From: a bacterium
Lineage (GTDB): Bacteria; UBP15; UBA6099; JAJRTR01
Assembly: GCA_024278215.1 (NCBI GenBank)
Contig: JAJRTR010000196.1
Coordinates: forward strand, 1 to 10,871
Direction: 5' to 3'
Length of the DNA: 10,871 bases
The notes below the pieces were generated by a model. The model did no database searches. It was given only the letters and a program-made list of their open reading frames with translations, and was not told where the DNA came from. This document shows positions 1 to 7,908 of the stretch, one piece after another. A program made the translations under genes and the position numbers. The first letter of the stretch is position 1, and each line of letters opens with the position of its first letter.

Positions 1-178
1 AGCCAATTGCAAAATTATGTTCGTAGCGAGGTCGAGCGAAATTGTTCAGAGCAAGGCGGAGGTGTAAAATCCTCGCAGACGTACTTGTAGAGTACGTCGA
101 GGACGATTTTATGCCGACAACGCAGCTATGGACAATAGTAGCCGACCGCAGCAGAATCAGAATTTTGCAATTGGCTCT
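1..178. repeat. Palindromic repeat element with 16-bp terminal inverted repeats
   Basis: The first 16 bases (AGCCAATTGCAAAATT) are exactly the reverse complement of 161-176. The middle holds a second inverted repeat: arms at about 68-86 and 94-112 carry AAAATC and GACGTAC motifs around a TTGTAGA-like loop. The flanks between these two pairs are only weakly complementary, so the whole unit would fold as one long imperfect hairpin. There is no room for a transposase. Size, terminal repeats and fold-back structure fit a MITE-like or dispersed intergenic element. Partial copies recur at 1814-1856, 7347-7357 and 7840-7876, which shows it is a family. The left boundary coincides with the window edge and may extend further. 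Mobility is inferred, not seen. Confidence 0.75.
42..70 (+). promoter_or_regulatory. Possible promoter inside the repeat, upstream of ALDH
   Basis: TTGTTC (42-47) and TAAAAT (65-70) are separated by 17 bp. The -10 is a good sigma-70 match; the -35 matches only TTG. It is the best candidate I could find for the ALDH gene, and transcription would start near 77, within the repeat. Confidence 0.3.
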
Positions 179-193
179 AACGAGGTGATGATT

Positions 194-1627
194 ATGCCGG
201 AACCGAAGCCCTTTTATTGTGCAGGTGAATGGAAGACAACAAGTGATGTGCTCGATGTCATCAACCCATACAACGGGGAAGTCGCCGGTCGTGTGTGCAT
301 GGCGGGAGAGAGCGAGGTGGAAGAAGCCACAGCCGGTGCAGTCGAGGCATTCGAAGAAACACGCCTGATGCCGGCATGGCGCAGGGAAGAGATACTGCTG
401 AATATATGCGATGAGATAATCGGTCGAAAAGAAGAATTCGCGGCGGCGATTTGCTCGGAGAACGGGAAGCCGATATCGGACGCGCGTGTGGAGGTGGAGA
501 GAGCGGCGACGGTTTTCAAAATAGCCGCCGAGGAGACAAAACGCATCGGCGGCGAGTATCTGCCTATGGACATCGCGCCGGGCGGCGAGTCCCGGCACGC
601 TCTCATCAGGCGTTTCCCGCTCGGGCCGGTTTTCGGGATAGCGCCGTTCAACTTTCCACTCAATCTCACGGCGCACAAAGTCGCGCCCGCGCTCGCTGCC
701 GGCAATACGATAGTGATCAAACCCGCATCGTCGACGCCACTTTCTTCGCTTCTGTTCGCGCAGGCGTGCGACAGGGCGGGCGCACTCAAAGGCTCGGTAA
801 GTGTGTTGCCGTGCAGGGTTCCGATCGCGGAGGCGATGGTGGAAGACGACAGGTTCAAAGCGCTCACATTCACAGGAAGCCCCGCTGTCGGATGGGCGCT
901 GAAGGCTAAATCGGGCCGCAAAAAAGTGACGCTCGAACTCGGCGGCAACGCGGGATGTATTGTTCATGCCGACGCGGACGTCGATCACGCGGCGACGCGC
1001 TGCGCGGCGGGCGCGTTCGCTTTCTCCGGCCAGGTGTGCATCTCGCTGCAACGAATATTCGTACACAAAGATATATTCGGGGAGTTCGCGGGCAGGTTTG
1101 TCGAACTGACAAAAGCGCTGAAAGTCGGCGACCCGCGCAGGGCCGACACGAACCTTGGTCCCATGATAAACGAGCGGGAAGCGCGCCGGGCAATGCAATG
1201 GATCGAGGAAGCGGCGGGCGCAGGCGCTAAAGTGCTGTGCGGCGGCGAGGCCGACGGCGCGATACTTCACCCGACAGTACTTTCCGACACGAGCGCGGAC
1301 ATGAAAGTGAGCTGCATGGAGGTTTTAGCGCCGGTCGTCACTCTTACGCAATATGACGATGTATATGAAGCCATAAGCATGGTGGACGATTCGGAATTCG
1401 GTCTCCAGGCGGGCATTTTCACAAATGACGCCCGCATCATCAACAGGGCTTATCGTGACATCGAAGTGGGCGGCCTGATGGTCAACGAAGTGCCCACCTA
1501 CCGGCTGGACCACATGCCCTACGGCGGTGTAAAAATGTCCGGCATGGGCCGCGAGGGACTCAAGTATGCCATCGAGGAGATGACCGAGCCTAAAATTATG
1601 GTTTATAACGACACGTCTCTGCTTTGA
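194..1627 (+). CDS. NAD(P)-dependent aldehyde dehydrogenase family protein
   Basis: A 477-residue protein of normal ALDH length that oxidises an aldehyde to the acid (or acyl-CoA) with NAD(P)+ in the cytoplasm. Visible family landmarks are PFNFPLN with the oxyanion-hole Asn153, IKPASS with cofactor-binding Lys176, FTGSP at 226-230, LELGG with general-base Glu248, the nucleophile Cys282 in SGQVC, and EVLAP at 376-380. All catalytic residues are present. I start at ATG 194 because GAGGTGAT at 182-189 is a strong Shine-Dalgarno at proper distance; the in-frame ATG at 128 lies inside the repeat element and would add 22 unrelated residues. The sequence recalls the lactaldehyde/succinate-semialdehyde/GapN-like part of the superfamily, but the substrate cannot be read from sequence. 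It is a single gene, convergent with the DedA-type gene, and its whole 5' leader is the repeat. Confidence 0.93.
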   Translation: MPEPKPFYCAGEWKTTSDVLDVINPYNGEVAGRVCMAGESEVEEATAGAVEAFEETRLMPAWRREEILLNICDEIIGRKEEFAAAICSENGKPISDARVEVERAATVFKIAAEETKRIGGEYLPMDIAPGGESRHALIRRFPLGPVFGIAPFNFPLNLTAHKVAPALAAGNTIVIKPASSTPLSSLLFAQACDRAGALKGSVSVLPCRVPIAEAMVEDDRFKALTFTGSPAVGWALKAKSGRKKVTLELGGNAGCIVHADADVDHAATRCAAGAFAFSGQVCISLQRIFVHKDIFGEFAGRFVELTKALKVGDPRRADTNLGPMINEREARRAMQWIEEAAGAGAKVLCGGEADGAILHPTVLSDTSADMKVSCMEVLAPVVTLTQYDDVYEAISMVDDSEFGLQAGIFTNDARIINRAYRDIEVGGLMVNEVPTYRLDHMPYGGVKMSGMGREGLKYAIEEMTEPKIMVYNDTSLL

Positions 1628-1674
1628 TGACGAACTGTACACGACCGGAACGCGGGCAAATGACGATGTGTTAC

Positions 1675-1701
1675 GGCTCTGTAGCCCGGCTGCGGGGAGC
1701 C
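1675..1701 (+). terminator. Hairpin 3' of ALDH, weak terminator candidate
   Basis: GGCTC (1675-1679) pairs with GAGCC (1697-1701), and an inner CCC/GGG pairing is possible. No T-tract follows, so intrinsic termination is doubtful. It is the only clear hairpin between the ALDH stop and the next repeat. Confidence 0.3.
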
Positions 1702-1813
1702 TTGATAACATACAACACACAGACGGTTTTCGCTTCTATCGGGTAGCCTTCAACTGGTTGCATCATGTGACCTGTATCAGCCGACACTGGCAGCTTGCAT
1801 ATTTGCTTTTGAT

Positions 1814-1856
1814 AAATTTCGTTCGACCTCGCTTCGAACATAATTTTGCAATTGGC
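1814..1856 (-). repeat. Inverted partial copy of the repeat element's left end
   Basis: Read on the minus strand, these 43 bases match 1-43 at 41 positions (mismatches opposite 24 and 36). Weaker similarity continues a little toward 1800. Only the left end is present; the element's centre and right end are missing. With the copy at 1 it forms a long inverted repeat enclosing the ALDH gene. It also lies just downstream of the convergent DedA-type gene's stop codon. Confidence 0.8.
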
Positions 1857-7104: not shown

Positions 7105-7133
7105 ATTGTACTCCGATAAGTGCGGAGTGTCGT
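7105..7133 (-). promoter_or_regulatory. Promoter with internal palindrome for the unrecognised gene
   Basis: On the minus strand, ACGACA (complement of 7128-7133) and TACAAT (complement of 7105-7110) are separated by 17 bp. A perfect inverted repeat, ACTCCG/CGGAGT (7110-7115 and 7123-7128), fills the spacer and would suit a repressor. The start would be near 7098, with a short leader. Confidence 0.5.
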
Positions 7134-7229
7134 GTCACACTTGTAAAATCGCAAAATGTGCATGGAGCGGTCACCGTCCCGCGCCCGGGGACATTCCTCA
7201 CGAAAACGGCTTTTACAGACACAAGTTGA

Positions 7230-7252
7230 GGTGGGTTGCGGCGCACCCGCCC
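7230..7252. repeat. G+C-rich REP-like palindrome
   Basis: The sequence GGTGGGTTGCG followed by GCGCACCCGCC forms an imperfect hairpin (outer seven pairs with one G-T, then a bulge). It resembles the GTAGGGYGGGTG...AACCCACC type of intergenic palindrome that recurs in many bacterial genomes. Only one copy is in this window. Confidence 0.5.
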
Positions 7253-7346
7253 TACTCCCGATTTTTGGCCGGCATTGGTGAAATAAGCGGGTTTACACTA
7301 AAACGCGGGAATTTTATTCCTTCAAGGGAGATTATATAAAACCTTA

Positions 7347-7357
7347 GCAATTGGCTC
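7347..7357 (+). repeat. Short terminus of the repeat family
   Basis: GCAATTGGCTC matches 167-177 exactly (11 of 11). Similarity to the left is lost within a few bases, so this may be a decayed end of the element; a chance match is possible at this length. Confidence 0.4.
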
Positions 7358-7526: not shown

Positions 7527-7811
7527 TTATTCCACGTGATTATTGATGATTTTCGCGAGTTCAAACATCGTGATCTGTTTTTTACCGAAAAGAGGTTCCA
7601 ATTTCTCATCGGCATTGATGTTTCTCTTATTCTCCGGGGCCTGCAGATCGTTTGCTTTGATGTAATCCCACATCTTTTTTACCATTTCAGTGCGCGGAAT
7701 CGGTTTACTGCCGATTACCGCTGCAAGTGTTTCGTCCGGCTGTAGCGGCTTCATGAAAGCTGCATTCGCTTTCCTTTTGGTTTTCTTCTTTGCGGCTTTT
7801 TTAGCTGGCAT
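7527..7811 (-). CDS. SWIB/MDM2-domain protein with lysine-rich tail
   Basis: A 94-residue protein made of a lysine/alanine-rich N-terminal tail (MPAKKAAKKKTKRK, 1-14) and one complete SWIB/MDM2 domain (about 18-92). Family-typical stretches are FMKPLQPDETLAAVIG (19-34), IPRTEM (38-43), MWDYIKANDLQ (47-57), INADEKLEPLFG (65-76) and TMFEL (81-85). In eukaryotes this domain belongs to BAF60b chromatin-remodelling subunits; stand-alone bacterial versions are known, best in Chlamydia, and a DNA-associated role is only presumed. The basic tail resembles histone-H1-like AKKK repeats and suits non-specific DNA binding. Start ATG 7811 is certain: AGGGAGGA (complement of 7816-7823) lies just upstream. 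It is monocistronic, with its own promoter and a hairpin after the stop. Confidence 0.93.
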   Translation of the reverse strand: MPAKKAAKKKTKRKANAAFMKPLQPDETLAAVIGSKPIPRTEMVKKMWDYIKANDLQAPENKRNINADEKLEPLFGKKQITMFELAKIINNHVE

Positions 7812-7839
7812 ATAATCCTCCCTGGATAATATTCTTATG

Positions 7840-7876
7840 AACCGATTGCAAAATTCTAATTCTGCGGCGGTCGGCT
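7840..7876 (-). repeat. Partial copy of the repeat element's right end
   Basis: This stretch matches the reverse complement of 140-176 at 33 of 37 positions, including the ATTGCAAAATTCT core and the GCGGTCGGCT motif. The remainder of the element is absent. It lies between the predicted start of the SWIB transcript and its ribosome site, so it would be part of the mRNA leader. Confidence 0.75.
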
Positions 7877-7879
7877 CTT

Positions 7880-7908
7880 ATGAAGCGGATTTTATCATCC
7901 GGCTTCAT
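7880..7908. promoter_or_regulatory. Inverted repeat over the SWIB -10 box, possible operator
   Basis: ATGAAGCGGAT (7880-7890) and ATCCGGCTTCAT (7897-7908) are inverted copies differing by one inserted base, around a 6-base centre. The repeat covers the predicted -10 and start site of the SWIB promoter. The half TCATCCGGCT (7895-7904) recurs exactly at 8116-8125. Confidence 0.45.

Follow-up and report, generated by a model that had tools for sequence, protein, structure and literature searches.

The ALDH gene and its flanking repeats

The window analysed here is the entire contig C174, a stretch of 10,871 bp from a genome of 4.55 Mb in 207 contigs. An aldehyde dehydrogenase (ALDH) of 477 amino acids is encoded at positions 194-1627 of the plus strand, with 194 as the likeliest start, and it lies between two inverted arms, 1-48 and 1810-1857, which a repeat search of the window found to be 92% complementary with 1,761 nt between them. 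The initial annotation had described a 43-bp inverted repeat (1-43 and 1814-1856) enclosing the ALDH gene without a transposase. The core of this description is correct, the true outer end being 1858, and between the arms we indeed find an Aldedh match (Pfam, E 6e-143) and no transposase. The best NCBIfam match of the protein is lactaldehyde dehydrogenase, below the cut-off. Its best identity is 36% in genomes of the same order, compared to 48% in an unrelated genome; this greater closeness to proteins of unrelated genomes may reflect either a horizontal gain or a loss in the relatives.

The left arm is part of a larger structure. Positions 1-177 (plus strand) constitute one full copy of a palindromic 178-bp element, shown below to be a MITE (nhmmer model positions 2-178, 212 bits), the first G of the consensus having been cut by the contig start. 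The predicted DNA fold has an energy of -45.8 kcal/mol, to be compared with -19.5 +/- 2.5 for shuffled sequences (z = -10.5). What stands at 1-177 is the full element and not just a 43-bp arm. Within it, on the plus strand, are the box GCAAGGC (51-57), an apical hairpin of the form AGACGTACT-loop-AGTACG (77-96; elsewhere AGGCGTACT-loop-AGTACG) and the box AACGCAGC (119-126), and both boxes are common to several phyla. The TAAC that follows at 178-181 is the expected right copy of a 4-bp target duplication, according to a rule taken from 48 of 70 copies, and its left partner would lie beyond the contig. Since base 1, the first base of the contig, lies within the repeat, the left outer flank of this copy is unreadable. 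Several further contigs also begin in the MITE (for example C25:1-175, C28:6 and C31:37), which indicates that the break in C174 was caused by the repeat during assembly.

The right arm belongs to a truncated MITE at 1803-1858 on the minus strand (model positions 1-55, 44.7 bits). It is the outer third of the element, with its outer end at 1858 and the interior missing, and full relatives of this end elsewhere assign it to the same element. The bases just outside 1858 are TATG. Another truncated MITE, comprising model positions 137-178, is located at 7839-7880 on the minus strand (26.8 bits), directly upstream of a gene with a SWIB domain (minus strand, 7527-7811). The 10.9 kb of the window hold in this way three MITE copies, two of which are broken.

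On the other side of the SWIB-domain gene, the motif AGCAATTGGCTC at 7341-7357 may be a decayed MITE end; it was recognised by reading the sequence only and was not reached by nhmmer. With the remnants at 7341-7357 and 7839-7880, this would be the second gene in the window bracketed in such a manner. A second dispersed repeat, unrelated to the MITE, is found at 7127-7293, with the core CCCGATTTTTGGCCGGCATTGGTGAAATAAGCGGG at 7255-7291. Up to 14 matches to it occur in a 780-kb sample of the genome, and a similar sequence adjoins a truncated MITE at another sampled locus (L086).

A MITE family with a 4-bp target duplication

To estimate the copy number, a profile search with nhmmer was carried out on stretches of the genome amounting to 780 kb. 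The MITE was found at 83 places, 47 of them full and 36 truncated, which scales to about 480 copies genome-wide. The genome contains 533 end motifs, as against 0 for the reversed control, a number well above anything that chance would produce. As the initial annotation had proposed, the repeat was used to search the genome, and the copy at 1-178 was found to be 96-98% identical to other full copies, with at most 98% to the next best.

A total of 70 distinct full copies with flanks could be compared. Their mean pairwise identity is 91%, the length is 178 or 179 bp in 63 of them, no gene is present inside, and the 17-bp terminal inverted repeats read GAGCCAATTGCAAAATT / AATTTTGCAATTGGCTC. An exact 4-bp target duplication surrounds 48 of the 70, compared to 2.3 with shuffled flanks, and the signal drops to 4 when 5 bp are required; within the 780-kb sample, 26 of the 47 full copies carry the duplication. 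The 48 exact duplications mean that the element has been transposed. With a length below 600 bp, no transposase, terminal inverted repeats, a target duplication of fixed length and a high copy number, the element is a MITE by both anatomy and behaviour.

The copies avoid genes, 78 of the 83 being outside any ORF although some 86% of the sample is covered by ORFs. They are located in tandem (35), divergent (22) and convergent (16) gaps, roughly in proportion to the gap length, and there is therefore no sign of a rule concerning gene boundaries beyond the avoidance itself.

Outside the source genome, the exact 17-bp ends were found in 0 of 59 other genomes, and the two-ended pattern gave 0 matches in the GTDB collection scanned. 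Five single matches of the exact ends in viral contigs, none of them with a partner, are taken as chance. No match to the element was found in phages, and plasmids gave two weak partial ones. Relatives of the element, at 69% identity, are distributed along a genome of the same order but a different family (G005). Alongside fragments there are three full copies; the ends read GAGGCTCTAACAAAA or a close variant, and the flanks are TTA or TAA. The flanking repeats in G005 apparently have 3 bp, compared to 4 bp in the source genome.

Origin of the bracketed ALDH gene

The inverted repeat around the ALDH gene is best explained by members of one MITE family having inserted twice, independently and in opposite orientations, with a later truncation of the right copy; we assign this reading a probability of roughly 0.94. 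It was one of two options put forward in the initial annotation, and it is borne out by the approximately 480 copies, the duplications around single copies, the random spacing of the copies and the broken state of the right one. Regarding the spacing, 22 neighbouring pairs are observed within 4 kb, compared to 28.6 +/- 3.6 for random placement, and 10 within 1.7 kb, compared to 14.5 +/- 3.1. Equal outer 4-bp flanks were found in 0 of 21 testable close pairs, the left flank of the ALDH pair itself being off the contig, while of the 21 full copies that are part of a close pair, 11 have a 4-bp duplication of their own. These results show that the inserted unit is the single copy and not the pair. 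In the gap between the ALDH gene and the right copy, no other sequence is repeated within the 780-kb sample.

In this mechanism, a transposase acting in trans would recognise the GAGCCAATTGCAAAATT ends and insert the element with a 4-bp stagger, a step that we infer from established MITE biology. Two MITEs would have been inserted independently, in opposite orientations, to the left and to the right of the ALDH gene, and the right one would subsequently have lost its inner two thirds. Truncated copies in general would arise by later deletion, possibly via the hairpin. The ALDH gene itself would not have been moved by the repeats.

Another option considered was that the pair has been kept for expression, with the left copy serving as a 5' leader by the ALDH ribosome-binding site and the right copy as the ALDH terminator. 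A likely ribosome-binding site at 182-187 begins 5 bp after the left MITE, and the plus strand has one predicted terminator-like stem, at 1821-1839. However, the terminator scan yields 4 sites compared to 1.8 +/- 1.4 in shuffles, and the copies occupy tandem, divergent and convergent gaps alike, roughly by length, so that this explanation is quite improbable. Slightly less probable still is an assembly artefact, in which the repeat consensus has been glued to the contig: C174 does start at element base 2, and several other contigs start in the repeat too, but the left copy has differences of its own from the consensus, and no other copy is more than 98% identical to it, as would be the case for a real copy.

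The least probable explanation is the other option of the initial annotation, a composite non-autonomous cassette in which the ALDH gene was carried as a unit by a transposase acting on the outer ends 1 and 1858; exactly one gene is enclosed by the inverted ends and the genomes of the same order have no close ALDH homologue, but the copy on the right is decayed, and the random spacing, the lack of matching outer flanks in any of the 21 testable close pairs and the duplications around single copies leave this reading unsupported. The lack of a close homologue in these genomes would also be compatible with a recent gain of the gene by another route. A further bracketed gene, a radical-SAM-like ORF at C186:67714-69039, would seem to favour the cassette, but it lies between a truncated MITE and a separate, internally deleted MITE of 69 bp, and the outer flanks do not match (ATAA vs GTAT).

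A gene bracketed by inverted repeats, such as the ALDH gene, is the expected product of hundreds of scattered repeats, and genes bracketed in this way in the present genome should not be read as cassettes.

The hairpin core and known systems

The core of the element has the layout GCAAGGC, an arm of 18-21 nt, AGGCGTACT-loop-AGTACG, a complementary arm and AACGCMGC. A scan of GTDB with the pattern GCAAGGC-N12-28-AGGCGTACT-N1-12-AGTACG gave matches in at least 84 stretches, whereas about 6 are expected by our estimate. Three of the loci (L199, L231 and L258) look like chance. At least 80 loci, from about ten phyla, contain the core, and the carriers among the matches listed are Desulfobacterota, Nitrospirota, Acidobacteriota, Bdellovibrionota, Omnitrophota, Methylomirabilota, Planctomycetota, Myxococcota, Auribacterota, Eisenbacteria and Gammaproteobacteria; most of them are MAGs, so some of the phylum labels may be wrong.

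It is important to realise that the boxes are fixed by the scan, and that their conservation is therefore not evidence; the evidence lies in the fixed spacing, the pairing of the arms and the occurrence in many phyla. In all of the 77 excised loci except the chance-like L258, the first two boxes stand 18-21 nt apart, although 12-28 were permitted. The arms vary between genomes and are yet complementary: 59% of the bases pair, compared to 33% after arm shuffling, and 70 of the 77 loci exceed their own shuffles by more than two arm pairs. With RNAalifold on a MAFFT alignment, only the apical stem is obtained, as the divergence of the arms precludes their alignment, and the pairing was for this reason tested within each sequence. 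The box AACGCMGC follows on the other side of the hairpin; since the sequences were delimited with this box, a mismatch being tolerated, how often it occurs is partly a matter of selection.

The ends of the core-containing elements are lineage-specific, being CAGGCTGCTCAAAAA-like, GACGGCTTCGTAAAAAG-like or CTAGCCCGCATTTCTCAC-like, and those of a Phycisphaerae genome, GAGCTGGTTTCAAAACT, are the closest to the ends in the source genome. Several copies of the Acidobacteriota type appear, from inspection of the bases, to have the same four outside both ends, CTAG or TTAA. These are compatible with a 4-bp duplication, but they are palindromic and hence indistinguishable from longer ends. Many relatives in Deltaproteobacteria and Omnitrophota have a second copy of the left end some 26 bp further out, and the right arm could pair with either.

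No transposase bearing the MITE ends was found in the genome in searches with PF01609, PF13701 and PF13586. Among the DDE_Tnp_1 (PF01609) matches, the IS4-like one on C200 has its own ends, CCAATACCGTTCAGTTAAGC, and the transposase genes on C48 and C189, which we take to be IS1634-like, are also without MITE ends. PF13701 matches only an IS1380-family remnant on C44, a decayed transposase fragment about 145 bp beyond a MITE copy, whose surroundings likewise lack MITE ends, and PF13586 has no match in the genome. DDE_Tnp_1 matches are present in 9 of 12 core-carrying genomes, none of them with the MITE ends of the genome in question, and the core loci, as judged by end spacing only, contain no IS-sized end pair holding a transposase. 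The partner transposase may have been lost, may be unassembled, or may belong outside these three families.

In Rfam, neither the element nor the core reaches the gathering score of any family. No description of the core was found in the literature searched, which included the text of the paper on the 'multicopy nucleotide sequences' of Geobacter (PMC2700814). The element is possibly an undescribed MITE superfamily in which the core, and not the end, is conserved. We tentatively propose, at somewhat less than even odds, that this fold-back superfamily extends over about ten phyla, with a conserved structured core as the functional inherited part and with lineage-specific terminal repeats. The core would then be, for example, a hairpin that a protein recognises in replication or transposition, with ends fitted to the transposase available. 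The results point to a MITE superfamily that is widespread and apparently uncatalogued, with the internal hairpin as its conserved part. If confirmed, it would offer a way to study how non-autonomous elements are sustained across phyla by structure and not by their ends.

Among known systems, insertion sequences with 4-bp duplications are found in the families IS1380, IS701 and IS1182 and in the IS5 group. The element resembles them in the size of the target duplication, whereas the IS4-, IS1634- and IS1380-like sequences of the genome differ from it in having no MITE ends. A classification of the ALDH pair with composite transposons or mobile gene cassettes is not supported, a shared outer duplication being present in 0 of 21 comparable pairs (the left flank of the ALDH pair itself lies off the contig). 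REP/REPIN sequences are, like the present element, dispersed palindromic intergenic DNA, but they are defined as RAYT-dependent palindromes of 20-40 bp with a GTAG or CGTC tag (PMC3733652). The element is 178 bp long, and its 4-bp target duplication is in keeping with a transposase that makes staggered cuts; by both properties it is not a member of that class.

The closest resemblance is to the prokaryotic MITEs Correia, ERIC, Chunjie of Geobacter uraniireducens and MITEAba12, which are likewise non-coding, 100-300 bp long and intergenic, with inverted ends, a target duplication, high copy numbers and many truncated copies. ERIC reaches up to 711 copies, and Chunjie has 178-235 bp, conserved TIRs and DRs, and partial copies as well (PMC10969869). 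Chunjie may itself belong to the superfamily proposed here. What sets the present element apart from these four is that the fold-back core, and not the terminal repeat, is the part common to other phyla.
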